From assembly GCA_900319645.1 (NCBI GenBank), contig ONPG01000015.1, positions 1 through 56,451 on the forward strand: a DNA stretch of 56,451 nucleotides. Direction: 5' to 3'. Below, one piece after another: positions 5,544 to 51,146 of this stretch (the first letter of the stretch is position 1; each line of letters starts with the position of its first letter). The translations under genes were made by a program, and so were the position numbers. Source of the DNA: an uncultured Bacteroidales bacterium. Lineage in GTDB: Bacteria; Bacteroidota; Bacteroidia; Bacteroidales; Paludibacteraceae. The notes below the pieces were generated by a model. The model was not told the origin of the DNA. It saw only the letters and a list, made by a program, of their open reading frames with translations, and searched no databases.

Positions 5544-6647
5544 TTATAACTGGCTCATTACGACTTCTCCGACCGCCTGGAGGGTTGATTTGGAGATATT
5601 GTCCATGTCATCGTTGCGTGTGTGCCACCAGTGAGGAAAGCCGGTCGTGTTACGCATATCGTAGTGGATAATATCCACACATGGGATCCCCGCCAATACA
5701 TTCACATAATAGTGGTCGTCCACGATCGGGAAAGCCTGCTGGCTGCTGAAAATCGCTCCGTAGCCGAGTTGTGCGGCCGCACGCCAGATCTGCTGCTGGT
5801 AGTTGTCGGCATACTGCGAGGAATAGAGTTCCATCGGGAAGACTGCGTCCGGAGCGCCGACCATGTCGAGCACGATACCAAAGGTATAGACCGGCTTCGC
5901 CTGAAAGACCGTTTCACTGTTAGACCGCTCTGCTGAAAGACCGGCTTCGCCTGAAAGACTTGCATAGTTGGTAGCCCAGAGTTGTGAGCCGAGGCACCAG
6001 GTATTCTCCCGTTCGGGCCCTGTGTAGAACTGCGGCGTACCCATATCTTCGCAATCGAAGAAGATGATATCGACCGGGGTCGATAGACCGCCCTGCGGGC
6101 TGTTAGACCGCTCCACTGTTAGACCGCTGTCGCTGTTAGACCGTTCGCTTTGCTCACTGTTAGATATTCTCAGACCTATTTGTCGCGCTACTTCAAGGAG
6201 AACACCGACTCCGGAAGCTCCATCATTGGCTCCAGGTACGTTGTAATAACGGTCGGTATATTCCTCTTCCTCGTCACACCAGGGTCGTGTGTCGTAATGG
6301 GCTGCGAGCAGCACACGCGGACGATTCTTTGTCTTGGGGGTATAGAAATGTCCGATGATATTATAGATCTGCTGGTTACGTCCGCTGTAGTCAGGCATTT
6401 CGCCTTTCTGCAGTTCCACTTCAGCTCCGCAGGCGCGTAACTGCTGGATAAGCCACACCGCGCACGCGCTATGCGCGCTACTATTAGGAACACGCGGACC
6501 GAACGCCATCTGACGTGCAATATAGGTATAAGCCGAGTCGGCTGAGAAAGCCGGACGAGCCGGCGCAGATGTTTTTTTGGCTGTACAAGCAGACAAGAGG
6601 CAGGCAATGCCTGCCACTAATCCGAATATGAATACTCTACTTTTCAC
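5544..6647 (-). CDS. M28 family zinc peptidase / glutaminyl cyclase-like lipoprotein
   Basis: This 367-aa envelope protein has the lipobox LSAC (Cys21). Metal and catalytic positions of the M28 fold are visible: AAHYDTR (His117, Asp119), GANDGASG (Asp142), FFDCED (Glu200), VDDHYY, and HWWHTRND near the C-terminus. Proteins of this type are secreted aminopeptidases or glutaminyl-peptide cyclotransferases; I cannot separate the two. Two insertions break the fold's loops in frame: residues about 161-190 and 231-251, both made of SNSxSGLTxERSNS-type repeats also found in two unrelated genes here. The gene lies 24 nt after prs in a minus-strand run. Confidence 0.85.
   Translation of the reverse strand: MKSRVFIFGLVAGIACLLSACTAKKTSAPARPAFSADSAYTYIARQMAFGPRVPNSSAHSACAVWLIQQLRACGAEVELQKGEMPDYSGRNQQIYNIIGHFYTPKTKNRPRVLLAAHYDTRPWCDEEEEYTDRYYNVPGANDGASGVGVLLEVARQIGLRISNSEQSERSNSDSGLTVERSNSPQGGLSTPVDIIFFDCEDMGTPQFYTGPERENTWCLGSQLWATNYASLSGEAGLSAERSNSETVFQAKPVYTFGIVLDMVGAPDAVFPMELYSSQYADNYQQQIWRAAAQLGYGAIFSSQQAFPIVDDHYYVNVLAGIPCVDIIHYDMRNTTGFPHWWHTRNDDMDNISKSTLQAVGEVVMSQL
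5901..5962 (-). repeat. In-frame GACCG repeat, second insertion in the M28 gene
   Basis: Plus-strand words CTGAAAGACCG, CTGTTAGACCG and CTGAAAGACCGGC alternate with short GC words such as GGCTTCGCC. In the gene's frame they encode GEAGLSAERSNSETVFQAK. Confidence 0.75.
6083..6168 (-). repeat. In-frame GACCG repeat, first insertion in the M28 gene
   Basis: Four tandem units of 16-19 bp share CTGTTAGACCG and differ in the word between: CCCTGCGGG, CTCCA, CTGTCG and TTCGCTTTGCTCA. In frame they give SNSEQSERSNSDSGLTVE and onward. The unit has the same orientation and frame relative to the gene as in the amidohydrolase (36770-36805) and CMD-cupin (50705-50783) genes. Confidence 0.85.
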
Positions 6648-6671
6648 TTTTTACCTTTCCTTTTTTCCTCC

Positions 6672-7631
6672 TTAGCGCATATTTGTCTCGCTCACAGAGG
6701 TGTGGCATTGAATAGCGCGGATGGTATATGCAATCGAATGTGCGAGACTTACGATATGCAGTTTGCTGCAGCATTTGGGGTCGATGGGCAGAGAATCTGT
6801 GCAAACCAGTTCCTCCAATACGCTGTTCTCTATTTTCTCGCAAGCGTTACCGCTCAGCACTCCGTGTGTGACCACGGCTCGTACACTTTTCGCACCTCCA
6901 GCCTGCATCACTTCTGCCGCTTTGCAGAGTGTCCCGGCTGTGTCGGCTATGTCATCGAAGAGCACAACGTCCTTGCCATATACGTCTCCCAGCACACGAA
7001 TCTCCGAGACTTTGTTGAAGTCCGGACGGTTTTTGTAGCAGATGACCATCGGCACTTCGTGGTCGGTCATAGCATGGAGTTTCTTGGCGAAGTTAGATGC
7101 ACGTTTTGACCCTCCGACGTCGGGCGAAGCCACAATCAGTTTCTTGAGGTTGAGACTTGCTATATAAGGCGCAAGCACGTTGGAACCATAGATATGATCG
7201 ACGGGTATGTCGAAGAAGCCCTGAATCTGCTCGGCGTGCAGATCGACGGTAATGATACGATCTGCTCCAGCAGCCTGCAGCATGTTCGCCACGAGTTTGG
7301 CGCCGATAGAGACACGGGGTTTGTCCTTGCGGTCCTGACGCGCCCAGCCGAAATACGGGATCACGGCTATCACTTTGTACGCACTCGCACGCTTGGCGGC
7401 ATCAATCATGAGAAGCAACTCCATGAGATTGTCGCTGCTGGGACAGGTGGGTTGGACCAGATAGACAGATTGTCCGCGGACCGATTCCTCAAAATAACTG
7501 CAAAACTCGCCGTCCGAAAAGCGGTCGAGATGGATTTTACCGAGCTGGCATCCCAGTTCCTCACAGATTCCTTTTGCCAGGGCTTCACCTTTCGAGCCGG
7601 CAAAAACTTTAAACTGATTGCACGCTTCCAT
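6672..7631 (-). CDS. prs: Ribose-phosphate pyrophosphokinase (PRPP synthetase)
   Basis: The enzyme makes PRPP from ribose-5-phosphate and ATP for nucleotide, His and Trp synthesis in the cytosol. The 319-aa length is standard. Visible motifs are the ATP-site segment FSDGEFCSYFEESVRGQ, the flexible-loop and metal region YFGWARQDRKDKPRV with ITVDLHAEQIQGFFDIPVD, and the PRPP-binding loop VVLFDDIADTAGTL. It follows a DUF4290 gene with a 9-nt gap and precedes the M28 peptidase gene by 24 nt. A short GTGAAAAAT-type repeat (6640-6672) lies in that gap. Confidence 0.95.
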   Translation of the reverse strand: MEACNQFKVFAGSKGEALAKGICEELGCQLGKIHLDRFSDGEFCSYFEESVRGQSVYLVQPTCPSSDNLMELLLMIDAAKRASAYKVIAVIPYFGWARQDRKDKPRVSIGAKLVANMLQAAGADRIITVDLHAEQIQGFFDIPVDHIYGSNVLAPYIASLNLKKLIVASPDVGGSKRASNFAKKLHAMTDHEVPMVICYKNRPDFNKVSEIRVLGDVYGKDVVLFDDIADTAGTLCKAAEVMQAGGAKSVRAVVTHGVLSGNACEKIENSVLEELVCTDSLPIDPKCCSKLHIVSLAHSIAYTIRAIQCHTSVSETNMR

Positions 7632-7640
7632 TGCCTGTAT

Positions 7641-7958
7641 TTATTTCTTTTTCTTTTTTGGTTGGTTGGTCATTACCATGTTGGGTTGCGCCATCAGACG
7701 TTGGAAATTGTCGGAATCGCATTTCAGTTTGCCCTCCGAGAGGCGAAGTATATCTTCGCGCACGCGGGCCATACCTGCTTCCTGATCACGGTTCCACACC
7801 AGATTTCGTTGCCGCATACATTGGGCGATATACACCTCCAGCGACTCGCGTTCGGCTTGGTTTTCCACCGTGCAAGCGTACCCTATCATGTCCTGTACAA
7901 TGCGTCCGTAGTTACGCATTCGTATCGGACTTGCGTTTCTATTTAACTGTAAAGTCAT
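7641..7958 (-). CDS. DUF4290-like small protein
   Basis: The 105-aa protein has the segment MRNYGRIVQDMIGYACTVEN, matching the start of DUF4290, a cytosolic Bacteroidota family of unknown function. Family members are normally near 200 aa, so this is a reduced form. The C-terminus is a run of five lysines. It sits in the minus-strand operon between the exo/endonuclease gene and prs. A string of ATTTTCTTATTTTCAC words (7958-8000) fills the 33-nt gap upstream of it. Confidence 0.5.
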   Translation of the reverse strand: MTLQLNRNASPIRMRNYGRIVQDMIGYACTVENQAERESLEVYIAQCMRQRNLVWNRDQEAGMARVREDILRLSEGKLKCDSDNFQRLMAQPNMVMTNQPKKKKK

Positions 7959-7991
7959 GTTATTTTCTTATTTTCACATTTTCTTATTTTC

Positions 7992-9074
7992 TCATTTCTG
8001 GCGGATGAGATAAATCATTGTGGGGAAGTGGTCTCCGTATCCGTTCTGCCAAACTCCTCCTTTGTGTGTACGGAGGGGAGCACCTTTGTCCTTGCCTTCC
8101 TGGACGGTCAGGAACGGTTTGTTAAAGACCTGGGATTTCCAATATGCCCATTTGCCACTATCCTTTCGCTCGTTGAGCAGGGGCTCGGAGATGATAATCT
8201 GGTCAAAGAGGTTCCATCCTCCGTTGTAGAAGAGCGTACCTGTTCCGTTCGCCAAGTGGATCCACATGGTATTGTACCATCCTTGGGGCTCCACCTGTTG
8301 CGGTTTCTTGCGTGCTTTAATCACCTCTTTGCAACTATGATTGTCCGGGTCGTCGTTCAAGTCGCCCATGATAATAATCTTCGCTTTCGGTTCTTTTTTG
8401 TAGATCGAGTCGCAGATGTGCATGCAAAGCATAGCCGCTGTGTCACGTCCCGGCCGGCTGGACAGTTCACCTCCGTAACGGCTCGGCCAGTGGTTGGTGA
8501 TCATATGTATTTTCTCCGGCGAACCATCTCCGAGCAGATAGCCCGAGACGAGCAACTGCAAACGAGTCTTGATCTCGCCACCATCCGCATAGTGGGCTTT
8601 CAGTTCATAGCCGGCTATGTGCGAAGGCTTGAAGAGGAGCGTGTCGTAGAGCAAGCCCACATCCACCCCACGACGATCAGGACCCTCCAAGAGAATCGGT
8701 TTCAACCGACGACCGTATTGGCTGTTAGTTACCGCACAGAGGTCATAGAGACAACCGATATTCTCCACCTCGGCAACGCCGATACAGGCAGCTCCGCGGG
8801 GATCGTAGTCTGTTCCCAGTTGGGAAACGGCGTACGCCATCTTTTTCAGTTTGTTCTCGTACTTGAAACTGGTCCATTTCATTCCGCCGTCAGGCAGGTA
8901 CTCGTAATCGTTCTTGCCTTCGTCGTGAATGGTGTCAAACAGGTTCTCCAGGTTGTAGAACGCAATACAGCGGACGTACTGCCCGGTGTGTTCACCTGTT
9001 TCTTGTTTCTGAGCACTTATTGTGCCCACCGTCATCAGCAGCAAGGCTGCCAGCCAAATCGATGTGTGTTTCAT
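7992..9074 (-). CDS. Secreted endonuclease/exonuclease/phosphatase family protein
   Basis: The 360-aa protein has an N-terminal signal peptide (AALLLMTVGTISAQ). The EEP fold is shown by FYNLENLFD near the mature start, IGVAEVEN (metal-binding Glu), TNHWPSRYGG (catalytic His region), MGDLNDDPDN (Asp/Asn) and GYGDHFPTM at the end (terminal His). It is likely a periplasmic or secreted phosphodiesterase or nuclease; the substrate is unknown. It is the first gene after the promoter at 9142-9173, and six further genes follow it with short gaps. Confidence 0.8.
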   Translation of the reverse strand: MKHTSIWLAALLLMTVGTISAQKQETGEHTGQYVRCIAFYNLENLFDTIHDEGKNDYEYLPDGGMKWTSFKYENKLKKMAYAVSQLGTDYDPRGAACIGVAEVENIGCLYDLCAVTNSQYGRRLKPILLEGPDRRGVDVGLLYDTLLFKPSHIAGYELKAHYADGGEIKTRLQLLVSGYLLGDGSPEKIHMITNHWPSRYGGELSSRPGRDTAAMLCMHICDSIYKKEPKAKIIIMGDLNDDPDNHSCKEVIKARKKPQQVEPQGWYNTMWIHLANGTGTLFYNGGWNLFDQIIISEPLLNERKDSGKWAYWKSQVFNKPFLTVQEGKDKGAPLRTHKGGVWQNGYGDHFPTMIYLIRQK

Positions 9075-9141
9075 AGCTTGCTATGGATTCATTAATGTCA
9101 GTTAGGGAAGTGTCTTGTCAGGCACTTTCTCAAATCGGGTG

Positions 9142-9173
9142 CAAAGATACACATTTTTTTTGACATACACAAG
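9142..9173 (-). promoter_or_regulatory. Promoter of the seven-gene minus-strand operon
   Basis: On the minus strand: CTTG (9173-9170), 20-nt spacer, TATCTTTG (9149-9142). No other promoter of this type is seen before sufD, so genes from the EEP protein to sufD probably share it. Confidence 0.75.
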
Positions 9174-9210
9174 AGAGAAATACTTTTTTCTACGAAAATG
9201 CACAAAAAAC

Positions 9211-10485
9211 TCAGCAGGATTTGGATGTCATGATATGGAGTACCATGTCGTCGGTCTTGCACATAGCGTCGGCTCCGATGCTCGTGAGGTTGTGAATACT
9301 GCGGTCCACGCAGTCATCCACAATACCTTCCGCGGAGCTGACACATTTGCCTTCCATCGCCAGAAGCGCAGAAAGGAGAGCCGTAGAGACTCCGGAAGTG
9401 ATCTTGAGCGAGCACGCCGGTTTGGCTCCATCGCAGATCATGCCCGTGAGGTTGGCAATCATGTTCTTGACGGCAAAGCATATATGTTCGTAGTCTCCGC
9501 CCATGAGGTACGTGATTCCACAACTACTGCCAATACTTGCCACGACACATCCGCAGAGCGCGGAGAGTGTTCCGAGAGATTGTTTGATATAGATAGCCGT
9601 GAGGTGGCTGAGCATCAGCGCACGGATCAGTTCCTCCTCGGTATTCTCGTTCTCTTTGGCATAGACACACACGGGGTTGGTTGCGCAAATGCCCTGGTTT
9701 CCGCTGCCACTATTTGACATCACAGGAATCATCGCTCCGCCCATACGGGCATCACAAGCAGAAGCCGTGCGGGAGATGATATGCGAATAGATGCTGTTTC
9801 CGAAGATACCTTTCGAGAGCGGGCGGTCGATGGTCTTGCCGAGGTTGTGTCCGTAGTTGCCTTTGAGCGCCTCGCGCGCGGCATTCATATTGTACGTGCG
9901 GGCATCCAGGATAAAGCGTATCTCGTCGAGCGGAGCGGTCGTAGCGAAGTCATAGACGAGGCGGAGATTCAGGGGAACTTGAAGTGTTTCGGGGTTGGTA
10001 TGAGAGGCGTTTGCATTTTTTTGCGGCGTCTCATCCACGAACCGGGTGTGTCCTCCGGCTATGATAGCAGAAGCACTTTTGCCGCCCGCCGTACAGGTCA
10101 CCTCGGCATAGAGTTTTTCGGTTATTCCTTCTTTCTGGCGGATAGCGATTCGATGCTCGGCGAGGAAGCGTTTGCCTTGTTCGAGGGTTTCCGGCGTAAG
10201 GTCTTTGAGCACTTCGAGCTGGTAGGCGCTTTTTCCGATGAGTGCGCCTAAAGCGATGGCGATAGGAAGGCCGGTCATGCCGGTTCCGGGAATACCGACA
10301 CCCATCGCATTTTTGAGGATATTGGCACTAAGCTGAACCTCTATCTTCTCGGGACGGCAACCTAATTTCTCTGTAGCGCGCGCGGTACATAAAGCAACGC
10401 ACATCGGTTCCGTACAACCTATCGCAGGAACCACTTCCTGACGAACGAGGGATAAGATACGTTCTCTTTGTTCTTTGCTGATCAT
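9211..10485 (-). CDS. L-cysteine desulfidase / UPF0597 family (CyuA-like)
   Basis: The 424-aa cytosolic protein belongs to the family of oxygen-sensitive 4Fe-4S cysteine desulfidases, which turn cysteine into pyruvate, ammonia and sulfide. Family-typical segments are GCTEPMCVAL near residue 24, LSANILKNAMGVGIPGTG, the SGSGNQGI loop, and the cysteine-rich MICDGAKPACSLK. The last is a likely cluster ligand pair together with the early Cys. The start at 10485 is set by MISKEQRERIL, typical for the family, placed 39 nt after a good promoter. The gene stands alone. Confidence 0.8.
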   Translation of the reverse strand: MISKEQRERILSLVRQEVVPAIGCTEPMCVALCTARATEKLGCRPEKIEVQLSANILKNAMGVGIPGTGMTGLPIAIALGALIGKSAYQLEVLKDLTPETLEQGKRFLAEHRIAIRQKEGITEKLYAEVTCTAGGKSASAIIAGGHTRFVDETPQKNANASHTNPETLQVPLNLRLVYDFATTAPLDEIRFILDARTYNMNAAREALKGNYGHNLGKTIDRPLSKGIFGNSIYSHIISRTASACDARMGGAMIPVMSNSGSGNQGICATNPVCVYAKENENTEEELIRALMLSHLTAIYIKQSLGTLSALCGCVVASIGSSCGITYLMGGDYEHICFAVKNMIANLTGMICDGAKPACSLKITSGVSTALLSALLAMEGKCVSSAEGIVDDCVDRSIHNLTSIGADAMCKTDDMVLHIMTSKSC

Positions 10486-10523
10486 GGTTGTGTGTCCAAC
10501 AGGACAAATTGCGTTTGTGAGTG

Positions 10524-10554
10524 CAAAATTACTACAAAAATTGCATATATGCAA
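10524..10554 (-). promoter_or_regulatory. Promoter of the cysteine desulfidase-like gene
   Basis: On the minus strand: TTG-type -33 (10554-10552) and TAATTTTG (10531-10524) about 20 nt apart. Confidence 0.75.
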
Positions 10555-10661
10555 GTAAACAAGCATTTTTTTTGAGAAAAAGAGCGAATTGAGGTTTTTA
10601 TGAGGGGCAAGAAATGGAGTGAGGAAGGGGTTTTGAGCGGGGAGGTGTCATGGTATCGAGC

Positions 10662-10709
10662 CGCTAATCACGCTATAATAACGCTATAATCACGCTATAA
10701 TCACGCTAT
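10662..10709. repeat. Tandem CGCTATAATCA microsatellite
   Basis: The 11-bp word CGCTATAATCA (with a variant TAATAA) is repeated about 4.5 times in the gene-free stretch 10567-11186. Confidence 0.9.
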
Positions 10710-10755
10710 TTTAACCAACAAAAACCCACCCCGGCCATCCGCATAAGGGAGGGAG

Positions 10756-11031
10756 GCCGGATAGTATCCGGCGTAAAAGAAGAAAGACACAATGGGGAGG
10801 GAATGGGAATGGGAGAGGACGCGGGAAGGGAGAGATGGATGGGGACGCGGGATAACATCCCGCATTTATATAAACAGAGGCCAACCCCCATCCTAACGAG
10901 ACGAGGCGGGAAGGGAAGGATGATGAGAAAGACGATGAGAGGCACATGAGAGGGACGCGGGATAACATCCCGCATTTATATAAACAGAGGCCAACCCATC
11001 CTAACGAGACGAGGCGGGAAGGGAAGGATGA
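10756..11031. repeat. Hairpin-bearing direct repeats (about 80 bp, 110-bp period)
   Basis: Two copies (10842-10923 and 10952-11031) share GGGACGCGGGATAACATCCC, a TTTATATAAACAGAGGCCAAC stretch split over the two sides, and an AACGAGACGAGGCGGGAAGG tail. They differ by a 2-nt indel. Each opens with the perfect hairpin GCGGGATaacATCCCGC (10847-10863, 10957-10973). A third hairpin, GCCGGATagtATCCGGC (10756-10772), has the same shape with compensating base changes. Open frames across this stretch are low-complexity and not convincing genes. Confidence 0.9.
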
Positions 11032-11061
11032 ATGAAAACAAATAAATTTTTGCGAATATTC

Positions 11062-11092
11062 TTGCATATGTCAATTTTTTTTTGTACTTTTG
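11062..11092 (+). promoter_or_regulatory. ssb promoter
   Basis: TTG (11062-11064) and TACTTTTG (11085-11092) with 20 nt between. It leaves a 5' leader of about 90 nt before the ssb ATG. Confidence 0.75.
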
Positions 11093-11186
11093 CAGCCGCA
11101 AAAGATTTTAAACAAGAATTCAAACAAAAATCAACAGAAAACAGGAATCGAAATTTTTAACTTATAAATTAAAATTGTAATTTTTT

Positions 11187-11672
11187 ATGGCAAGTGTAAA
11201 CAAAGTTATTCTCATTGGAAACGTAGGAAATGACCCAGAAGTTCGTTATTTGGACCGCGGCGTTGCAATCGCTACCTTCAATTTAGCTACTACCGAACGC
11301 GGTTATGTTATGCAGAACGGCACACAGGTACCCGATGTGACCGAATGGCACTCCATCGTTCTATGGAGGAATCTGGCGGAATGGGCCCAGAACTATGTCC
11401 GCAAAAGCATGAAAGTATATATCGAGGGCAAACTGAAGACCCGTACATGGGAGAAAGACGGTCAGATCCGCCGCAAGACAGAAGTGGTGGCTGAGACCAT
11501 ACAGATCCTTTACAAACCCGAGCAATACCGTAACCTGGGACGTCCGAACACAGCGGACGAGGCCGCAGAGACCAGCGAGCAACTGCCGGAAGCCCCTGTG
11601 ACGGACAATAACGAGGCAGCAGAAGCAACTGAAGCTCCGCAACAGAACGGCTTCTTCGGACTTTTCCGTTAA
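11187..11672 (+). CDS. ssb: Single-stranded DNA-binding protein
   Basis: The 161-aa OB-fold protein coats ssDNA in replication, repair and recombination. The N-terminal 110 residues are typical: SVNKVILIGNVGNDPEVRYL, TEWHSIVLWRNLAE, VYIEGKLKTRTWE. The tail is acidic and glutamine-rich, as expected, but ends NGFFGLFR. The usual DDDIPF-like acidic tip that recruits partner proteins is absent. A FemAB/GNAT-like gene follows 49 nt later in the same direction. It could be an accessory SSB, though nothing nearby suggests a plasmid or phage. Confidence 0.93.
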   Translation: MASVNKVILIGNVGNDPEVRYLDRGVAIATFNLATTERGYVMQNGTQVPDVTEWHSIVLWRNLAEWAQNYVRKSMKVYIEGKLKTRTWEKDGQIRRKTEVVAETIQILYKPEQYRNLGRPNTADEAAETSEQLPEAPVTDNNEAAEATEAPQQNGFFGLFR

Positions 11673-11721
11673 GAGATGACGGAGCGTTCAGACAGACCAA
11701 CGACCAACAATTCACGACCAG

Positions 11722-12681: not shown

Positions 12682-12721
12682 GTTGGCGGTTGGAAAATCG
12701 GAAATTATCAAAAATCAAGAA

Positions 12722-12780
12722 CAATAATCCGAGATATCGAAATATCGAGATATCGAGTTATCGAGATTTCGAGATAACAA
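12722..12780. repeat. Intergenic TATCGAG-type quasi-tandem repeat
   Basis: The spacer is a run of variants of GATATCGA/GAGTTATCGAG/GATTTCGAGATAAC, each 8-10 nt. It is the same family as the in-frame block in sufD (4095-4133). It directly abuts the start of the glycosyltransferase gene. Confidence 0.85.
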
Positions 12781-12792
12781 ATAAACCATATT

Positions 12793-16708: not shown

Positions 16709-16712
16709 AAAT

Positions 16713-17544: not shown

Positions 17545-17636
17545 AGTAGAAAGTCGAAAGACAAAAGTCGAAAGACCGGTCACGTTGTGACCTCAAAGCC
17601 GTATGACGCTTTCTACTTTGAGCGAAGCGGTCTGAT
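17545..17636 (+). repeat. AAAGTCGAAAGAC/GACCG repeat and hairpins upstream of recG
   Basis: GTAGAAAG (17546-17553) can pair with CTTTCTAC (17609-17616), enclosing AAAGTCGAAAGACAAAAGTC and the hairpin GGTCACgttGTGACC (17578-17592). Its words match the GACCG family found in coding genes here. It separates tonB from recG and may terminate tonB transcription. Confidence 0.75.
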
Positions 17637-36463: not shown

Positions 36464-37420
36464 ATGCGGCAAACGATTGTATCAACTCTGCTTGTTCTCT
36501 CTTCCATGGCGGCGGCACAAGTGACGGACTACCACGCGCACGCAATTCCTGATTCGTACCGCGAGCTGGTGGCGAAGCACAACATGCTTCTGGACGAAGG
36601 TTTTCCCTTGCCGCAGTGGAGTGCGGAGGCACATCTGCAGATGATGAGCGAGGTGGGTATCGATAGAACTATTCTGACGATTCCTGCTCCGCATCCTTTT
36701 TTCGGCGACCAAACGGAGTGCAATACCGCGTGTCGTCAGTTAAATAAAGAGTTGGCGGCCCTGTGTCTAACTTCTAACAGCGCCAGCGGTCTAACGTCTA
36801 ACTTCCAATTTGCCGCGATCCTTCCTCTGCCGGATGTGAATGCAGCGATCGAGGAAGCCAAGTACGCGTTAGACACTTTAGGAGCTGTGGGCGTCAAGTT
36901 AGCCACGAACGTCTATGGGCAATACCTCGGTGACAGCGTCTTAGACCCGCTGATGGAATTTCTCTCCGAGCGCCAAGCCTTAGTTATCCTTCATCCGCAC
37001 AAACCCTCGCCGGTGAACGAGAAGGTGATGCATCAAACGCCTTTAGCGATGCAGGAATACCTCTCCGAAACCACGCGCACGGTCTGCAACATGATCAGCC
37101 GCAACGTGTTAGCGCGCTATCCGGGAATGCGTGTCGTTGTACCGCACGGAGGAGCCTATCTGCCGATTGCTATCCCGCGAATGCGGTCGCTCTATCCGGT
37201 GATGCGGCAGAACGGCTTGGTGGGCGAGATTGATTTCGAAGCCAACCTCAACAGCCTCTATTTTGACTTGGCGGGTTCGCCTTCGGACGAGACCATCCGC
37301 GCACTCCTGCCCCTCACCACGCCTGACCGTCTCCTCTACGGAACCGACTACCCGTACGTCGCACCTAAAGTCATTAAAGCCAACATCGAACGTATCAAAC
37401 AACATCTTCCAAACAAATAA
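36464..37420 (+). CDS. Secreted amidohydrolase (ACMSD-like, amidohydrolase_2)
   Basis: The 318-aa metal-dependent hydrolase/decarboxylase has a signal peptide (about residues 1-18, ending AAAQ), which is unusual for this mainly cytosolic family. Motifs are DYHAHAIP (His24, His26), VILHPHKP, VVPHGG and LLYGTDYPY (metal Asp). Residues 101-114 (CLTSNSASGLTSNF) are an in-frame repeat insertion shared with the M28 and CMD-cupin genes. A secreted flavodoxin gene follows 5 nt later, so the two form an operon; the substrate is unknown. Confidence 0.8.
   Translation: MRQTIVSTLLVLSSMAAAQVTDYHAHAIPDSYRELVAKHNMLLDEGFPLPQWSAEAHLQMMSEVGIDRTILTIPAPHPFFGDQTECNTACRQLNKELAALCLTSNSASGLTSNFQFAAILPLPDVNAAIEEAKYALDTLGAVGVKLATNVYGQYLGDSVLDPLMEFLSERQALVILHPHKPSPVNEKVMHQTPLAMQEYLSETTRTVCNMISRNVLARYPGMRVVVPHGGAYLPIAIPRMRSLYPVMRQNGLVGEIDFEANLNSLYFDLAGSPSDETIRALLPLTTPDRLLYGTDYPYVAPKVIKANIERIKQHLPNK
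36768..36805 (+). repeat. In-frame SNSxSGLT repeat in the amidohydrolase gene
   Basis: TCTAACTTCTAACAGCGCCA, then GCGGTCTAACGTCTAAC, encodes LTSNSASGLTSN. Codons TCT-AAC-AGC-(GCC)-AGC-GGT-CTA-AC are the same, in the same frame, as in the CMD-cupin gene. Confidence 0.85.
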
Positions 37421-38746: not shown

Positions 38747-38849
38747 AGAGCCAGCCTGCTTGGTGGTCAAGCAGGCTGGAGTCCGATAGATCGAGTTATC
38801 GGGGAATTGAGAGAGCGAATCTTGATCGCCCATGTATGGTCGATGCATT

Positions 38850-42436: not shown

Positions 42437-42464
42437 GATTTCAGCAAGAAAATGCAAATATATT

Positions 42465-42585: not shown

Positions 42586-42617
42586 AAGTGCGTTTTGATG
42601 CTCATTTATGCAAAAAT

Positions 42618-42672
42618 GGTAGATATTCGGCTAATTTATGTTTGCGTATCTCAAAAAAAAGTAGTACCTTTG
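42618..42672 (+). promoter_or_regulatory. Extended promoter of the alcohol dehydrogenase gene
   Basis: TTTG (42641-42644), 20 nt, TACCTTTG (42665-42672), with the conserved upstream block GGTAGATATTCGGCTAATTT (42618-42637) also present at 36277 and 49910. Confidence 0.85.
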
Positions 42673-42726
42673 CGCCGAAATTCAAATAATAAATTCATTA
42701 ACGCAAATAAATAATACAAAATAGCT

Positions 42727-43914: not shown

Positions 43915-43915
43915 A

Positions 43916-44335: not shown

Positions 44336-44353
44336 CATCAAACAGAATACATT

Positions 44354-44869: not shown

Positions 44870-44881
44870 GAGAAATCATTA

Positions 44882-44911
44882 AAATCTGCATTCCAAGTGC
44901 AGATTTTTTTG
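44882..44911 (+). terminator. Intrinsic terminator fused to the next promoter
   Basis: AAATCTGCA (44882-44890) pairs with TGCAGATTT (44898-44906) and runs into a T-tract. The end of the T-tract plus G forms the -33 TTTG (44908-44911) of the MBOAT promoter. Confidence 0.9.
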
Positions 44912-44939
44912 TATAACTCAAAAAAAAGTAGTACCTTTG
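44908..44939 (+). promoter_or_regulatory. Promoter of the MBOAT operon
   Basis: TTTG (44908-44911), 20-nt spacer, TACCTTTG (44932-44939). Confidence 0.85.
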
Positions 44940-44947
44940 CAGCAGTT

Positions 44948-45024
44948 TTTAATCGAGTGCTACTAAGCACGAGAAAAACGGCTAAATTAGCCGAAAGTTG
45001 CAAAGGTTTTTACTTTGTGCAACT
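44948..45024 (+). promoter_or_regulatory. Leader with three hairpins before MBOAT
   Basis: GTGCTactaAGCAC, CGGCTaaattAGCCG, and AGTTGCA...TGCAACT (44996-45024, also with AAAG/CTTT) lie in order between promoter and start codon. The last is copied exactly at 47736-47764 before fic. Confidence 0.6.
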
Positions 45025-45048
45025 ACCATAGGTAAATCACGATTATTT

Positions 45049-46587
45049 ATGCTATTTAATAGTTTAGAATTTGCATTTTTTCTGCCAATAGTGTTTCTGC
45101 TCTATTGGTTTTTAACGCCTTCCGGTGCAAACGGTCCGCGGTATTCGCTTTTCCATTATTGGCGGGTCAGCGAACAGAGGGCCTTGAATATTCAAAACGC
45201 TTTTGTTCTTATCGCCAGTTACGTTTTTTACGGCCGGTGGGACTGGAGGTTTCTATTGCTCATCGCGTTCACGAGTTTCTGTTCATGGGGAAGCGGGCTA
45301 TTAATTGGAAACGCTTCCTCGCAAAACAACGCTAAGTTCTGGATGATAGCCAACTTAGTTTTGAATCTCGGCATTCTGGCGGTATTCAAGTATTACGATT
45401 TCTTTGTTCGCGAGTTCGGACAACTATTCGGCATCAGCACAGATAGTTTACTGTTGCGTATTATTCTGCCTGTGGGTATTTCATTCTACACGTTTCAGGC
45501 ACTATCTTATTCCATTGATGTCTATCGCCAAAAGATAGAGCCGACCAAGAATATTGTTGCGTTCTTTGCGTTTATCTCTTTCTTTCCGCAACTGGTTGCA
45601 GGTCCTATTGAGCGCGCAACCAATCTTCTGCCGCAGTTCCTCAACAAGCGCACCTTTTCGTATAACCAAGCCGTGGACGGAATGCGCCAGATCTTGTGGG
45701 GTTTGTTCAAAAAGATTGTTATTGCCGATAACTGCGCTACTTACGTAGATCAAGTTTGGTCCACTTATGACAGCCAAAGCGGCTCGACACTTTTGCTGGC
45801 GGCTGTGTTTTTTACGTTCCAGATCTACGGCGATTTTTCGGGCTATTCGGACATCGCCATCGGAACCGCTAAGTTGTTTGGAATCAAGCTCATGCGCAAC
45901 TTCAACAATCCATATTTCTCGCGTGACATAGCGGAGTTCTGGCGTCGTTGGCACATTTCCCTGACTACGTGGTTTCGCGATTATGTTTATATTCCGTTAG
46001 GCGGTTCGCGTCCCGAAATCCCGGCTGGTATCAAACATCCGGATCAGTACAAGAAATGGATTATTGTGCGGAATACCTTTGTTATTTTCCTTCTTTCCGG
46101 TTTTTGGCATGGCGCCAATTGGACTTTTATCGTCTGGGGTGCGTATCATGCCATCTTATTTCTTCCGCTCATTCTGCTTGGTCAAAACCGCAAATACACC
46201 AATCAGGTCGCAGAAGGACGTTTATTGCCCACATGGAAAGAATGCGGACAAATACTACTGACATTTATGCTCGCTGTATTTGGCTGGATTATTTTCAGAG
46301 CGGAAACAATCGGTCAAACTTGGGATATTATGACGCATATTTTTAGCGGCTCTTTGTTTTCCGCGGCGTGGCTAAAAGATGACCTGTTCAATATTACGCT
46401 ATTTTCAAGTTTGGCGATATTGCTGTTTGTTGAGTGGTGTAACAGAAACGAAGCACATGCCTTTGCTGTACTGCCAAGAAATAAATTCCTGAGAGTAAGC
46501 ATTTATCTCATTATTACTTGTTTGTGCTTGTTTAACATATATGCCTTAAAAACGGTATCACACCCATTTATTTATTTCCAGTTCTAA
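45049..46587 (+). CDS. MBOAT O-acyltransferase (AlgI/DltB-like)
   Basis: The 512-aa polytopic membrane protein moves acyl groups across the inner membrane onto envelope polymers. It has the MBOAT features FFPQLVAGPIERATNLLPQF, a DFSGYSDIAIG segment and the catalytic-histidine motif GFWHGANWTFIVWGAYHA near residue 350. The start at 45049 (MLFNSLEF) is where family members start. The SGNH-like partner follows after 3 nt. The gene pair is flanked by direct copies of a flavodoxin 3' end, terminator and leader, as if inserted. Confidence 0.92.
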   Translation: MLFNSLEFAFFLPIVFLLYWFLTPSGANGPRYSLFHYWRVSEQRALNIQNAFVLIASYVFYGRWDWRFLLLIAFTSFCSWGSGLLIGNASSQNNAKFWMIANLVLNLGILAVFKYYDFFVREFGQLFGISTDSLLLRIILPVGISFYTFQALSYSIDVYRQKIEPTKNIVAFFAFISFFPQLVAGPIERATNLLPQFLNKRTFSYNQAVDGMRQILWGLFKKIVIADNCATYVDQVWSTYDSQSGSTLLLAAVFFTFQIYGDFSGYSDIAIGTAKLFGIKLMRNFNNPYFSRDIAEFWRRWHISLTTWFRDYVYIPLGGSRPEIPAGIKHPDQYKKWIIVRNTFVIFLLSGFWHGANWTFIVWGAYHAILFLPLILLGQNRKYTNQVAEGRLLPTWKECGQILLTFMLAVFGWIIFRAETIGQTWDIMTHIFSGSLFSAAWLKDDLFNITLFSSLAILLFVEWCNRNEAHAFAVLPRNKFLRVSIYLIITCLCLFNIYALKTVSHPFIYFQF

Positions 46588-46590
46588 GTT

Positions 46591-47520
46591 ATGAAACGAT
46601 TTTTACAAAAAATAATCGAATATAGCCTGTATTTATTAGGTGTGGTGATCGTTATTTTCTTTCTGATATATGATCCGTATTCCAGATCTTCTCACGAAGT
46701 GAACGTTCGGCTTGCTTCGGAAAGGCTCAACGCGATAGATGAGCAAAAAATGATGATTATTGGAGGTAGCGGCTGTCAGTTTGGATTCAATTCGCAACTG
46801 TTACATGATCATTACGGACTTCCGATAGTAAACACGGCAACTCATGCCTGCATAGGACTTCAGATGCAAATCAATTTGTATAAAAGTTTTATTCGTCCGG
46901 GAGATATTGTGCTGCTTATACCGGAATACGAACAGTATTTTTCGTCTGAGTTATACAATGGATGTTTGGACGAAAGCCTGCTTCGTATTCTATTGAGCAA
47001 CTATCCGAAAGGACTGACTAAGCTAACATTAGCACAATGGAAAACAACTATTCCATGGATTCCGCAGTATATTACCAAAGCTATGACTCATCGGTCCATC
47101 GGGTCATACGACCCTTATTCCGCAACTGGGATCAATGAGTATGGAGATGTAACGAATTGGGAATATAAAAAGGCGGTTTATCAGGAGCACCCGGAAACCT
47201 CTTTGTTTCCGATATATGTTAACATGGAAGCATTGGAATTTCTGGCAAATTTCAAGACCTATTGCGAAGAGCAAAATGCAAAATTATTTCTTTTTCCGCC
47301 GACGATTGCCATGTCAAAAGCCATGCCGAATACCGGTTTTTGCACAAATTTAGAGCAGGCACTAATCAATAATAATACTCCTTATTGTGTGTCTCCTCAG
47401 CGGTATTTTTTGCCCGACAGTATGTTTTTTGACACCTATTATCACATGGTTAAGAACGGAGCTGAATGCCGTACGAATATGATCATACACGATTTAGACA
47501 GCTTGTTGACACAGCAGTAA
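46591..47520 (+). CDS. SGNH/AlgJ-like partner of MBOAT
   Basis: The 309-aa protein has one N-terminal TM (about residues 10-28) and a periplasmic domain with MMIIGGSGCQFGFNS as the block-I serine motif and YYHMVKNGAECRT as the likely His-bearing final block. This is the usual partner that takes the acyl group from MBOAT and transfers it to a glycan. Its stop at 47518 is immediately followed by the flavodoxin relic. Confidence 0.7.
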   Translation: MKRFLQKIIEYSLYLLGVVIVIFFLIYDPYSRSSHEVNVRLASERLNAIDEQKMMIIGGSGCQFGFNSQLLHDHYGLPIVNTATHACIGLQMQINLYKSFIRPGDIVLLIPEYEQYFSSELYNGCLDESLLRILLSNYPKGLTKLTLAQWKTTIPWIPQYITKAMTHRSIGSYDPYSATGINEYGDVTNWEYKKAVYQEHPETSLFPIYVNMEALEFLANFKTYCEEQNAKLFLFPPTIAMSKAMPNTGFCTNLEQALINNNTPYCVSPQRYFLPDSMFFDTYYHMVKNGAECRTNMIIHDLDSLLTQQ

Positions 47521-47622
47521 CTATTGGCAGGCAGAGGATATGGGCGTTGTAACCGCCAAAATCGACGAGCAAAAGACAGACGCTACGAAACAGAAAATCG
47601 TGGATTTAGTAGTGAAACTGTA
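47521..47622 (+). pseudogene. 3' relic of a flavodoxin-like gene
   Basis: The translated relic reads YWQAEDMGVVTAKIDEQKTD and on to a KL stop, nearly the same as the last 33 residues of the gene at 44354-44869. The relic's 5' end coincides with the stop of the preceding gene. The following terminator is also duplicated. Confidence 0.85.
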
Positions 47623-47635
47623 AGCGAAATCATTA

Positions 47636-47693
47636 AAATCTGCATTCCAAGTGCAGATTTTTTTGTATATATCAATTATTTTTCGTAACTTTG
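47636..47693 (+). promoter_or_regulatory. Terminator fused to fic promoter
   Basis: AAATCTGCA (47636-47644) with TGCAGATTT (47652-47660), T-tract, -33 TTTG (47662-47665), 20-nt spacer, TAACTTTG (47686-47693). It is a diverged copy of 44882-44939. Confidence 0.85.
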
Positions 47694-47735
47694 CAGCCGA
47701 AAAATGCAATTAATCGTGCCCTTTAGGGCTAAGAA

Positions 47736-47764
47736 AGTTGCAAAGGTTTTTACTTTGTGCAACT
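47736..47764 (+). promoter_or_regulatory. Conserved leader hairpin before fic
   Basis: AGTTGCA...TGCAACT, identical over 29 nt to 44996-45024. Confidence 0.7.
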
Positions 47765-47776
47765 GCCCAATTGGAA

Positions 47777-48550
47777 ATGGAACCGTTACAGATCATACAT
47801 AGTGAGTTATTTGCCGACTACCAAGCGCAGCAGCTAATAACGATTGAGAAGCGTGTCAAAAGACTTGCTTCCAAACCGCTCACGCCGCAGAACTTCCGGT
47901 TCTACTTGCTCAGTTCGTCTTGTAACTCCAGCCTTATTGAAGGCTCGTCCATGACGGAAGATGATTATTTGAAACTCAAAGAAGCCAAGATCATCAGCCG
48001 CGATGTACAAGAGATAGACGATATGATTGCTGCTTATGAGTTTGCCTCAAAGAACGCAATTCGGACGGACACTTTTTTGGAGGCGCACAGGCTTATTTCT
48101 AATTGTTCCGGCATAGCGGACAAGTATAAAGGTGCGTATAGGGACATGCCGGTGGGTGTTTTCGGCGGCGGAGTGAAAGTCTATACCGGCGCTTCACCGG
48201 AGATAGTAGCCGAGGAAATGACTAAACTCATGCACGATATAGATGTGCTTGTGAATCAGGATTTATCGTACGACGAGGTTTTCTATTATGCTGCTATGAT
48301 TCATCTTGTGTGCGTGAGCATTCATCCTTTTGCCGATGGTAATGGTCGTACTTCGCGTTTGTTAGAGAAATGGTTCCTTGCTCAGAAACTCGGACAGGTC
48401 GCGTGGGCTATTCCCTCCGAGAAACTCTATTTTAAACGCAAAAAATCCTATTACGAGAACTTGCATTTTCGGGATAACTACAATGCTATCGATTACAGCC
48501 GTTCAATTCCTTTCCTCTGCATGTTACCGATGGCTTTGAACATAAAATAA
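47777..48550 (+). CDS. Fic-domain protein (AMPylase), class II
   Basis: The 257-aa protein has the Fic motif HPFADGNGRTSRLLEKWFL near residue 182, with the catalytic His and phosphate-anchor residues, and an N-terminal inhibitory helix SSLIEG of the (S/T)xxxE(G/N) type. It would transfer AMP (or another nucleotide) to a target protein; the inhibitory helix implies self-control. The start at 47777 follows the leader hairpin. Confidence 0.88.
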   Translation: MEPLQIIHSELFADYQAQQLITIEKRVKRLASKPLTPQNFRFYLLSSSCNSSLIEGSSMTEDDYLKLKEAKIISRDVQEIDDMIAAYEFASKNAIRTDTFLEAHRLISNCSGIADKYKGAYRDMPVGVFGGGVKVYTGASPEIVAEEMTKLMHDIDVLVNQDLSYDEVFYYAAMIHLVCVSIHPFADGNGRTSRLLEKWFLAQKLGQVAWAIPSEKLYFKRKKSYYENLHFRDNYNAIDYSRSIPFLCMLPMALNIK

Positions 48551-48628
48551 ATACACGTCCGAAAAAGCGACCATTCTCATTCCGTATAATTGTGGAATCT
48601 GTTATTAATCACAAACTTGTTTTATTGT

Positions 48629-49396
48629 ATGATCATTCAGTTAATTTCATTTCCGTGGTATGAGGGGAATCTTTCTGCACAGGAAGAAAATTTACGCATA
48701 AAAACCATATGCGATTTCCTAAATGACACAAGTGCGGACTTTGTTATGTTTAGCGAGCATGTAATCGGAAATATAAACTCATTAGATATCATCAATAAAA
48801 GCGTGCAGGACAAAGGAATTTGTTCTCTTTTTGAAATAAATGATAGATCGCGAATAGGTTTGGCAAGAAACAGACTTTTCTTATTGAAAGATAACAATAT
48901 TATAAATCTTCAAACCAGACAAGTTTTCTCCGAAGCAGAAGATGCGGACGAAGAACGGGTCGAGAGATTAATTGAAGAATTAGAGTACCATCGGCATTTT
49001 GAGATAAATAAGAAAAAGTTCTTGATCCTGCAATGCGGAGAAAATAACATATTGAAAAGTATTAGAGGAACGCAAGAAGCAGAGTTTAGGCTTCAAAATC
49101 GTCCGGATCTAAAGAAAAGATTTCAAAACGTGATAGAAAACGCAGATGTAGTTCTTAATCCCGTTCATACAAGATGGGGAAGATATGGAGATTTCTTATG
49201 CCGTATAAGAACATTCAGCAAAAAGAAACGGTATTGTTTCTCTTGTTCGCAGATTGAAGAATATCAGTTAGAAAGAGCCAAAGTCAATCCTGCAAAAAAC
49301 ACCACACAGATAGCCATGTGCAGCAAGAAACTTGTTGCTCCTATTCTCTCTATAGACAAAAATGGTTGTTTAATACAATCTTATGATATTAGATAA
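48629..49396 (+). CDS. Nitrilase-superfamily-like protein (tentative)
   Basis: The 255-aa protein resembles the nitrilase fold: SADFVMFSEHVIG (Glu), FEINKKKFLILQCGENN (possible catalytic Cys) and NADVVLNPVHTRWGRYG, typical of a strand after the Cys. The catalytic Lys cannot be placed with certainty. It lacks the conserved RFP-type context, so the family call is weak. It is located between fic and a small secreted protein. Confidence 0.4.
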   Translation: MIIQLISFPWYEGNLSAQEENLRIKTICDFLNDTSADFVMFSEHVIGNINSLDIINKSVQDKGICSLFEINDRSRIGLARNRLFLLKDNNIINLQTRQVFSEAEDADEERVERLIEELEYHRHFEINKKKFLILQCGENNILKSIRGTQEAEFRLQNRPDLKKRFQNVIENADVVLNPVHTRWGRYGDFLCRIRTFSKKKRYCFSCSQIEEYQLERAKVNPAKNTTQIAMCSKKLVAPILSIDKNGCLIQSYDIR

Positions 49397-49597
49397 ATGA
49401 AACGCTTTTTCTCCATATTAATTTGTTCATTTTTTGTTACTTTCGCAGTCGCTTCTGATGTCAAGATAGACAAAGAAAACTGCACGATTACCAAAGACGG
49501 CAAGATCTACAATTTGTACGGAAAGGTAAAGATTGTGGATTCGTTTGAGGATATAAAAATCAAGATAGTTGATGCTTTCGAAGGAGTAAAGAAATAA
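49397..49597 (+). CDS. Small secreted protein with VDSFED/VDAFEG repeats
   Basis: The 66-aa protein has a signal peptide (MKRFFSILICSFFVTFAVAS) and a mature part GKVKIVDSFEDIKIKIVDAF, with two copies of (K)IVDxFEx. It resembles the opening of VDSFPD-repeat (septoil-knot-type) proteins but stops after two repeats. It starts right after the upstream stop. The function is unknown. Confidence 0.55.
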   Translation: MKRFFSILICSFFVTFAVASDVKIDKENCTITKDGKIYNLYGKVKIVDSFEDIKIKIVDAFEGVKK

Positions 49598-49646
49598 GTA
49601 TCCGCTATTCGGTTCAATACTTTCATTGAGAGGGGGTAATGCCTTA

Positions 49647-49798
49647 TTCTTAACAATCGTATACCTTTCAACTACCTTATAAAAACCTGCCAAACAGCAT
49701 ATCTCGCGCCACTCTCGCGCCACAATTAGGGGAATGTGGATATAACGTGCAAATCTTAATAATCGTCACTTTCTCCCCTTACCTGCCGCGTACGAGAC
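49647..49798 (-). repeat. Dispersed element 'GTTGAAAGGTATAC', copy 3
   Basis: On the minus strand this reads from GTCTCGTACGCGGCAGGTAA to GTTGAAAGGTATACGATTGT. It is the full-length counterpart of 38593-38746. Confidence 0.85.
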
Positions 49799-49865
49799 AC
49801 ATACGGGAAAGATACCCGACGATAGACCAACAGGATTTCGACGAGATACCGTAACCTAATCTTAA

Positions 49866-49894
49866 AAATCGTACATTTCTTGTGCGATTTTTTT
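49866..49894 (+). terminator. Intrinsic terminator
   Basis: AAATCGTAC (49866-49874) pairs with GTGCGATTT (49882-49890), followed by T's. It lies before the CMD-cupin promoter. Confidence 0.75.
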
Positions 49895-49909
49895 CATTTC
49901 TGCGAAAAT

Positions 49910-49964
49910 GGTAGATATTTAGCGAATTTATGTTTGTGTATATCAAGAAAATGTAGTACCTTTG
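49910..49964 (+). promoter_or_regulatory. Extended promoter of the CMD-cupin gene
   Basis: Upstream block GGTAGATATTTAGCGAATTT (49910-49929), TTTG (49933-49936), 20 nt, TACCTTTG (49957-49964). Confidence 0.85.
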
Positions 49965-49991
49965 CAGCAGATTTCTGATAAGAGAGAAAAT

Positions 49992-51146
49992 ATGAGAAAG
50001 TTTTTACCCCTTATGCTTGCAGCCCTTACCTTTGCTGCTTGCACAAATTCAAATGAACAAATAGTAAATGACAAAATGGTAAATGAGAAGATGGAGCTCA
50101 GTTTTACGAATGAGCAGGCAGTGTGGATGAGTGTCATCGCTTGCGATGAGGCAAAGGGAGACCTGGTAGCTCTGGAGTCGGCTATTCATAATGGTCTGGA
50201 GGCTGAGTTGACGGTTAGTCAGATCAAGGAAGCACTCTCGCAGTTGTATGCATACACGGGTTTTCCGAGAAGCCTGAATGCGCTGGGCGTGTTGCAGCGT
50301 GTTATCGGAGATCGTCAGGCGAAAGGCGTGAAAGTTATTATGGGCGAGGATGCAAGTCCGCTCAGCGATGACTACGATGCACTTAAAGAAGGTACGCGCG
50401 TGCAGACGCAACTGGTCGGCAAGGCTTTTGAGTATGAGTTTGCGGAGGCGACGGATTATTACCTGAAAGCGCATTTGTTCGGGGATATTTTTGCTCGCGA
50501 TAACTTGACTTATGCCGACCGTGAGTTGGTGACCGTTTCGGCCTTGAGCGGTTTGGAAGGCGTAGAACCGCAACTCAAAGCCCACATCGCCGGCGCACGC
50601 AATATGGGTGTGACCGAAGAGCAGTTGCAAGGCATTGTGGTTGCTCTCGCGGCGAATGGTCTTCTGAACGAAGCAGGACGTTTGGCGAAAGCTTATGATG
50701 AGTTATCTAACAGCGATAGCGGTCTAACAGAGGAACGGTCTAACAGCGTAAGCGGTCCAACAACGAAGTGGTCTGTTGGCTCTCCCAACTCCGCTTATGC
50801 GCAGTATTTTGTGGGTCAGAGTTTTCTGCAGCCGTATTTCGGCGGTGTGGCGAATGTGACATTCGAGCCGCGATGCCGCAATAACTGGCATATTCACCAC
50901 AAAGCCGTGCAAGTGCTGATCTGCGTGAGTGGAAAGGGTTGGTATCAGGAGTGGAACAAACCCACTGTTCCGCTTACTCCGGGAACCGTGATTGCTATTC
51001 CCGAAGGCGTCAAACACTGGCATGGAGCCGCGGCTGACTCGTGGATGCAGCATTTGGCGATTCACACCCAAGAGCAACCGGGCGCTACGAACGAATGGCT
51101 CGAACCGGTTAGTGAGGAACAATATAAAAAAATATACAATGAGTAA
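49992..51146 (+). CDS. Carboxymuconolactone decarboxylase-cupin lipoprotein
   Basis: The 384-aa lipoprotein (lipobox FAAC, Cys17) has two AhpD/CMD-type helical repeats (about residues 40-115 and 140-235: SQLYAYTGFPRSLNAL; GVTEEQLQGIVVALAANGL) and a C-terminal cupin (about 275-375: NNWHIHHKAVQVLICVSGKGWYQ, GVKHWHGAA). Such fusions occur with flavodoxin-type genes in Bacteroidota and are thought to handle reactive carbonyl or quinone-type compounds; this is inference. The linker 238-262 and residues 21-34 consist of in-frame repeats (SNSDSGLTEERSNSVSG; VNDKMVNEKM). Confidence 0.88.
   Translation: MRKFLPLMLAALTFAACTNSNEQIVNDKMVNEKMELSFTNEQAVWMSVIACDEAKGDLVALESAIHNGLEAELTVSQIKEALSQLYAYTGFPRSLNALGVLQRVIGDRQAKGVKVIMGEDASPLSDDYDALKEGTRVQTQLVGKAFEYEFAEATDYYLKAHLFGDIFARDNLTYADRELVTVSALSGLEGVEPQLKAHIAGARNMGVTEEQLQGIVVALAANGLLNEAGRLAKAYDELSNSDSGLTEERSNSVSGPTTKWSVGSPNSAYAQYFVGQSFLQPYFGGVANVTFEPRCRNNWHIHHKAVQVLICVSGKGWYQEWNKPTVPLTPGTVIAIPEGVKHWHGAAADSWMQHLAIHTQEQPGATNEWLEPVSEEQYKKIYNE
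50705..50783 (+). repeat. In-frame SNSxSGLT repeat in the CMD-cupin gene
   Basis: Four to five units of CGGTCTAACAGCGATAG type (variants AGAGGAA, AGCGTAAG, AACGAAG) encode SNSDSGLTEERSNSVSGPTT in the CMD-cupin linker. Confidence 0.85.

Follow-up and report, generated by a model that had tools for sequence, protein, structure and literature searches.

Several described systems come close to the repeat reported here, which recurs within and between genes of a 56,451-nucleotide stretch of DNA from an uncultured Bacteroidales bacterium of the Paludibacteraceae (ONPG01000015.1 of assembly GCA_900319645.1; contig C25 of the 2.64-Mb draft genome, hereafter the window). Heptanucleotide direct repeats are one such group, the cyanobacterial short tandemly repeated repetitive (STRR) sequences among them. 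Another, the TAACTGA repeat, forms tandem 7-mers that are mostly intergenic and occur sporadically over distant phyla (Beggiatoaceae, Cyanobacteria and some Bacteroidetes), and polymerase slippage has been proposed for heptamers (PMC4679880; this and the papers below are cited from parts of their text). Rickettsia palindromic elements (RPEs) are palindromic DNA lying in frame in many unrelated proteins and varying between species (PMC10969869). Repetitive extragenic palindromes (REPs) of the GTAG and CGTC classes are short, clustered hairpins mostly downstream of coding regions, with intragenic copies in replication and repair genes among others; the GTAG class has a REP-associated tyrosine transposase (RAYT, Y1_Tnp), the CGTC class no dedicated transposase (PMC3733652). 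By its title and abstract, the palindromic amphipathic repeat coding sequence of Mollicutes and others is an intragenic palindromic tandem repeat of wide, patchy distribution (PMC2996958), as is ours. At the level of structure, a GNA or GNNA loop closed by at least two G-C pairs makes a very stable DNA mini-hairpin, GCGAAGC melting at 78 C (PMC4686876).

By the features tested, the repeat described here unites heptamer repeats with DNA mini-hairpins and is neither an RPE nor a REP. Like RPEs it is inserted in frame into unrelated coding sequences and absent from orthologues, and it behaves like tolerated in-frame palindromic elements. However, an RPE is about 150 bp long and encodes one conserved peptide, whereas here tandem units of ~16-20 bp are read in three phases, 260 units hold 82 distinct hairpins, and the stems, for the most part 2 bp long, have no set sequence and lie in a heptamer register. 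With REPs it shares short hairpins, clustering, location downstream of genes and replication and repair genes among its hosts, but REP stems measure 5-13 bp (GTAG) or 8-9 bp (CGTC) against 2 bp in 197 of our 246 stems. REPs carry the tag GTAG or CGTC at the hairpin foot, whereas here AGACC precedes the hairpin and TGNN-AGA or -GGA follows it, and unlike REPs our arrays are head-to-tail tandems. Direct repeats and a 7-base register are common to our arrays and the heptanucleotide repeats; ours, however, are neither identical nor uninterrupted, for the heptamers are degenerate and covarying hairpins stand between them, and 83 of 146 arrays lie within genes. Hairpins between heptamers go unmentioned in the part of PMC4679880 used here. 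In the open-licence PMC literature, none of three sequence strings taken from the unit turned up, and none of the best-ranked matches was a paper on this element by title or abstract start. We put the probability at about one half that what we see is neutral or selfish repeat DNA, generated by slippage and template switching and tolerated in loops.

In the window, AGCGGTCTAAC occurs 10 times with at most one mismatch, against 0.65 expected (maximum of 100 shuffles, 3). Units are present where a preliminary description of this DNA had placed them, in an M28 peptidase-like, an amidohydrolase and a CMD-cupin gene, and in all three the coding strand carries GGTCT, as it had stated. A scan of the whole genome, proposed there as a check, gave 19 occurrences of AGCGGTCTAACAG at the same tolerance versus 7 of the reversed word. 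For wider surveys, an array was called where two perfect short hairpins, each preceded by AGA[CT]C, occurred within 30 bases. In 452 kb (the window plus 20 stretches), this detector found 15 arrays, one of them (L019; L numbers denote loci, G numbers genomes) chance-like, compared with 1 in the reversed sequence and a total of 3 for eight control words. All array counts are lower bounds, because two arrays of the window, those of the amidohydrolase and cupin genes, escape this stricter detector; a looser list of 37 clusters includes many chance clusters. The scan of named genomes, not a census, returned at least 120 stretches. Of 120, 100 form the main Bacteroidales set and probably represent one family, their records giving Paludibacteraceae, or only Bacteroidales or Bacteroidia, with one Porphyromonadaceae and one Candidatus Colicola. 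Fifteen form an other-taxa set; L168 and L177 were placed in neither, and L152, L166 and L172 (Rufibacter, Edaphobacter and Blautia) were dropped as single chance-like matches in coding sequence.

Each unit consists of a degenerate heptamer (GNNAGAN) and, after it, C-[mini-hairpin]-T; the AGACC strand of an array reads AGACC-[hairpin]-TGNN-AGACC and so on. When spacers between unit flanks were collected without requiring a stem (260 found), Watson-Crick pairing at pairs 1-4 amounted to 98, 95, 93 and 83% (n = 260, 260, 56 and 35), against shuffled means of 93, 49, 68 and 51%. At the second pair, 95.0% of the 260 units were paired, versus a shuffled mean of 48.9% and a shuffled maximum of 59.2%. 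Stems reach 2 bp or more in 246 units, of which 209 have triloops. On the AGACC strand these read T-N-Y in 200 cases, T-N-C in 160 of them (GNA on the GGTCT strand), and 22 of 33 tetraloops read T-NN-C (GNNA on the GGTCT strand); the opposite strand therefore carries R-N-A and G-NN-A. Where hairpins contain 2x2 internal mismatches, TC lies opposite TC in 21 of 24, which the GGTCT strand reads as tandem G-A. DNA is stabilised by tandem sheared G-A pairs. On the AGACC strand the commonest unit is GCTTCGC (35/260), the complement of the d(GCGAAGC) mini-hairpin, and the loop rule is alike; in PMC4686876 such hairpins are oligonucleotides and parts of aptamers, whereas here they form a genome-wide repeat grammar. 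The loop rule extends to the other-taxa set, where 51 of 54 triloops (15 loci) are T-N-Y and 12 of 67 spacers lack a stem.

Between AGA words, hairpin-free gaps peak at 7 bases (50/190 versus 13/436 in control regions), and 366 of 404 listed gaps equal 7 once the hairpin and its two flanking bases are removed; the detector sets the base on both sides of the hairpin, not the position of the next AGA. The corresponding figures for other taxa are 18/41 and 45 of 55. With hairpins removed a 7-base register thus remains, and an array is therefore a degenerate heptamer repeat interrupted by C-hairpin-T. The last hairpin is followed by TGNN (or a variant) and then by AGA in 100 or GGA in 28 of 146 arrays; the background for AGA is 1.6%.

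Heptamers and hairpins behave differently. At the two variable heptamer bases, compared over 145 arrays from 59 genomes, identity was 63% within an array (317/500), 41% between arrays of one genome (842/2041) and 17% between genomes (15302/90124; maximum of 300 permutations, 26%). Whole hairpins were identical in 12.8% of comparisons within an array, 5.4% between arrays of a genome and 4.7% between genomes. Consecutive pairs of hairpins (7/889 versus 127/39652) hint at a few copies. In RadA, the arrays of L065, L080 and L102 keep the same hairpin order with different heptamer bases (AC, AC, and AA plus TA in L102). We infer that heptamers are homogenised while the hairpins are folded out of a slipped duplex.

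Using gene calls from a home-made gene caller, we placed 146 arrays (the genome sample and 100 Bacteroidales loci; an array had to hold at least two AGA[CT]C[GA] words, which removed that of L019 among others, and L145, L147 and the chance loci lie outside the main set): 83 lie within genes, 16 at 3' ends, 2 at 5' ends and 45 between genes. Intragenic arrays are antisense in 71 cases, with GGTCT on the coding strand, and sense in 12, a count in which arrays of related species are non-independent; by host family, 51 are antisense-only, 7 sense-only and 3 both. At 3' ends 15 of 16 arrays are sense, and 17 of 33 sense arrays start between -5 and +10 bases from the preceding stop codon, versus 3 of 22 antisense arrays. 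In the other taxa, where all 15 classified arrays (13 loci) are intergenic, the same holds for 8 of 11 sense and 0 of 9 antisense arrays. Individual sense arrays that begin at most a few bases from the upstream stop codon were noted in L085, L101, L109 and L125 and at 3514 in the window.

The claim that the units keep one reading frame survives only loosely for the genes of the window. The spacing of units there is 16 or 17 bp, so that the reading passes to and fro between open phases (SNS... and GLT...) within a single array, and over the 71 antisense arrays all three phases are used (101, 69 and 50 units); this lends no support to a single selected frame. The RPE-like spreading element proposed earlier accordingly keeps its dispersed, species-variable and in-frame character and its absence from many orthologues, and loses its one-frame selection. 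The link to exported proteins was a sampling accident: by a crude home-made predictor, 14 of 69 scorable hosts have a signal-like N-terminus versus 208 of 623 genes of the same loci. Intergenic mini-hairpins, which had been listed as related words between genes, do belong to the same system, and the intragenic units carry them too.

The 78 host genes fall into 61 families. One member of each of 60 was compared with NCBIfam (E up to 1e-10, some matches lying below NCBI's cut-offs), the 61st being the M28 gene of the window (Pfam). The best matches include MutS2, RadA, PcrA/UvrD, Mfd, UvrB, RecF, MurC and chorismate synthase, and further LeuRS, DusB, MiaB, TtcA and RsgA; repair and RNA-modification genes recur in this listing, much as PMC3733652 reports for REPs inside genes, and 13 of the 60 families had no match at that threshold. 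In L163 (2186-3409), residues 5-230 of one frame match a GGGP-family synthase and residues 263-407 a TadA tRNA deaminase, with the array within the protein. An era-like gene in L165 (424-900) shifts frame directly behind its array and once more further on, perhaps through sequence error or decay, and was left out of the evidence.

In the host proteins that we aligned, the inserts occupy variable loops or linkers, in agreement with the preliminary description, and many aligned orthologues lack them. Both arrays of the M28 gene coincide with gaps in two alignments to solved structures. Among the 30 genomes aligned for this gene (76 had a match), a multi-unit array in loop 1 was present in this genome only, with one unit-like remnant in L183; for loop 2, arrays were seen here and in L182 and L200, and L183 and L203 have single units. 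L181 and L182 have GTTTCAC as the second hairpin of loop 2, and L200 has GCTTCGC; the change is compensatory and lies in coding sequence. The cupin array is common to L222 and L223, exactly 33 bp shorter in L224, and represented by single-unit remnants in L229 and perhaps L227; nine loci (L225, L226, L228 and L233-L238) have a short linker without array. An amidohydrolase orthologue 92% identical (L252) lacks the insert. Arrays are gained, lost and changed by whole units between species. In UvrB of L110, a 20-residue gap in the alignment to the best solved UvrB spans the array, and the array of the L149 chorismate synthase (residues 94-113) falls for the most part within a stretch (52-107) unaligned to the best solved homologue. 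Alignments of MurC and RadA to solved structures run through the arrays with small gaps. By our own reading of 30 RadA linkers (76 genomes matched), 6 hold hairpin arrays and 3 sense composite arrays, and the best periodicity is 7 in 13 of the 30; these sets overlap. Other tandem repeats occupy the M28 loops of L189 (a 15-bp repeat giving NDQMV), L190, L198 and L206 and the RadA linkers of L276, L283, L284 and L295, with TTGACAG-, CTGACGG- and GAAAGGC-like heptamers among the fillers.

Table 1. Arrays and their host genes in the window.
Feature	Position	Strand	Details
Intergenic composite array	3514..3571	+	AAAGACN-type heptamers; mini-hairpins GC-ttc-GC and GCAGGC-ttt-GCCTGC; AGACC on +
Host gene, lipoprotein-like M28 / glutamine cyclotransferase homologue	5544..6647	-	
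Four-unit array, second loop of M28 gene	5888..5959	+ (AGACC on +)	Coding strand is the GGTCT strand
Four-unit array, first loop of M28 gene	6085..6164	+ (AGACC on +)	
Intergenic heptamer array (GTCGAAA)n	17545..17636	.	Hairpin GGTCAC-gtt-GTGACC on +
Host gene, exported Amidohydro_2 protein	36464..37420	+	
Amidohydrolase-gene array	36765..36802	- (AGACC on -)	GTTAGAC, GTTAGAC, hairpin GC-TGGC-GC, GTTAGAA, GTTAGAC
Host gene, CMD + cupin lipoprotein-like protein	49962..51146	+	
CMD-cupin gene array, inter-domain linker	50705..50777	- (AGACC on -)	

The first intergenic array fills the space between the stop codons of a plus-strand gene (ending at 3513) and a minus-strand gene (3572-4258). In the second, a further unit, AGACCGCTTCGCTCAAAG on the minus strand, is inverted and faces the (GTCGAAA)n unit. 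On the plus strand, the heptamers of the cupin array read ATCTAAC, GTCTAAC, GTCTAAC, GTCCAAC and GTCTGTT, with four partly decayed hairpins between them. The product of the M28 gene is likely a glutaminyl cyclase, judging from its best solved-structure match, the bacterial glutamine cyclotransferase 6qro (E 1.7e-74). Elsewhere in the window, an intergenic inverted repeat at 38750-38790 (CCAGCCTGCTTG...CAAGCAGGCTGG) is terminator-like.

In the genus, a strict form of the pattern matched 38 of 61 genomes, with 0 to 77 matches per genome and none in 23; it matched none of 394 other Bacteroidota genomes. Matches in public records point to relatives among rumen and gut Paludibacteraceae. Outside the main set the spread is sporadic, as has been described for TAACTGA heptamers (PMC4679880), at least 15 loci belonging to Saprospiraceae, Crocinitomix, Kordia, Flavobacterium, another member of the Flavobacteriales and Lentisphaera marina. 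In L040 (G070) and L039 (G077), from two other families of the order, a unit AGACCGG...CCGGTCAGACCG recurs in several contigs and is possibly an unrelated palindromic repeat.

Tolerated repeat DNA could have come about as follows. When single-stranded, on the lagging strand or in a repair gap, the GGTCT strand would fold into a row of compact, stable mini-hairpins. Host polymerases could slip between heptamers, or switch to the heptamers of another array, with the hairpins folded out; this would alter unit number and homogenise the heptamers, while the hairpins would stay individually inherited. Selection for folding, or intra-strand templated correction, may keep the hairpins closed. Arrays would survive in genes where their product is an open surface loop, mostly with GGTCT as the coding strand, and otherwise between genes. 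Such spread would require no dedicated enzyme. In another system, stem-loop synthesis by polymerase theta is primed by two base pairs (PMC11292364), and pairing of that length can therefore prime.

Several results weigh against this reading. No insertion event was seen, and the genomes compared included no near-identical strain pair with and without an array. Genome-wide dialects need copying between loci, yet hairpins are without clear sharing within a genome: the sharing is not above chance, 54 of 300 permutations reaching the observed value. Several other orthologous RadA arrays have mixed heptamers and no clean dialect switch. The antisense share of intragenic arrays is 86%, where avoidance of stop codons would give 56-66% (p = 7e-5 against 0.66), so that more than mere tolerance may act, and the abutment of sense arrays on stop codons is predicted by neither neutrality nor slippage. 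About a quarter of the hairpins (71/260) have T-A as second pair and fall outside the published G-C recipe. Finally, nearest-neighbour DNA energies average -0.86 and -0.69 kcal/mol for the two strands and -0.87 for random loops, and RNA energies -1.43, -1.32 and -1.37, respectively; since these models separate neither strands nor loops, the argument for DNA rests on the published measurements of GNA hairpins.

The arrays might instead be non-autonomous mobile elements, moved by a dedicated single-strand transposase (HUH/Y1 or similar) that reads hairpin shape and heptamer, as RAYTs do with REPs. We consider this unlikely. Copy numbers that differ so widely among species of one genus would fit such an enzyme, as would a structural rule on one strand with a conserved TGNN-AGA or -GGA boundary, and heptamers specific to a genome, as if co-evolving with it. 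But Y1_Tnp, which we searched for together with RVT_1, shows no link to copy number: it was found in 9 of 18 genomes with at least 10 matches and in 8 of the 23 that lack a match (p = 0.36), and was not found in the high-copy draft genomes G002, G024, G041 and G046. The REP/RAYT reading is weakened accordingly. Copying by a reverse transcriptase is weakened likewise, for RVT_1 does not track copy number; 14 of the 61 genomes have it (3 of the 18 with at least 10 matches, 4 of the 23 with none), it being present in G002 and G041 and not found in this genome, G024, G007 and G046. Copy-and-paste of whole arrays is weakened by the chance level of hairpin likeness within a genome, which also speaks against a transposase, and carriage by phage by two viral contigs that match the pattern once each, neither holding a longer array.

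Slightly less probable still, in our estimate, is that the arrays are functional sites of a DNA-binding protein specific for structure and sequence, acting in chromosome organisation, replication restart or repair, with dialects following the protein. A heptamer dialect per genome, hairpins conserved in shape only and the orientation rules of the arrays are what such sites would show. The lack of any strict match in 23 genomes of the genus and the erosion or loss of arrays between orthologues argue in the other direction.

An RNA-level element, whose transcript hairpins would act in 3' end formation, stability or translation pausing, appears improbable to us. Sense arrays do start at stop codons, and REPs, mostly downstream of coding regions, are plausibly RNA elements (PMC3733652). 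However, the stems are mostly 2 bp, and Rfam gave no match in the window at gathering scores. Moreover, intragenic transcripts would mostly contain GGTCT and those of 3' ends the opposite strand, but loci of both kinds obey one loop rule. In the other taxa, 8 arrays start at a stop codon of the same strand; their transcripts would carry the opposite strand, and the loop rule is the same. We infer that the folding rules are those of single-stranded DNA rather than RNA.

Selection for linkers rich in S, N and G, with the DNA likeness a by-product of simple-sequence expansion in fast-evolving loops, is very improbable: other species do fill the same loops with other repeats (NDQMVN, heptamers) and a period of 7 is common in RadA linkers, but intergenic arrays have the same units and grammar, three phases and both strands yield different peptides, and no peptide needs stem covariation.

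More tentatively than the reading of tolerated repeat DNA itself, we propose a class of repeat set by a shape grammar of single-stranded DNA rather than by sequence: extrahelical GNA mini-hairpins on heptamer direct repeats, with the heptamers homogenised genome-wide and the hairpins individual and covarying, spreading enzyme-free, which would have supplied new loops to housekeeping proteins across a genus and which occurs sporadically in distant phyla. If this is true, DNA-level structure shapes coding sequence, as stems covary inside RadA and M28. To our knowledge, mini-hairpins with G-A pairs are known mainly from oligonucleotide chemistry. The spread of a repeat without evident transposase becomes a testable question, and the 30 RadA linkers, with different repeats or none, would be natural experiments on the origin of protein loops. 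Many loop inserts in metagenome-derived proteins of these bacteria would then be repeat-derived, which bears on their annotation and on structure prediction.

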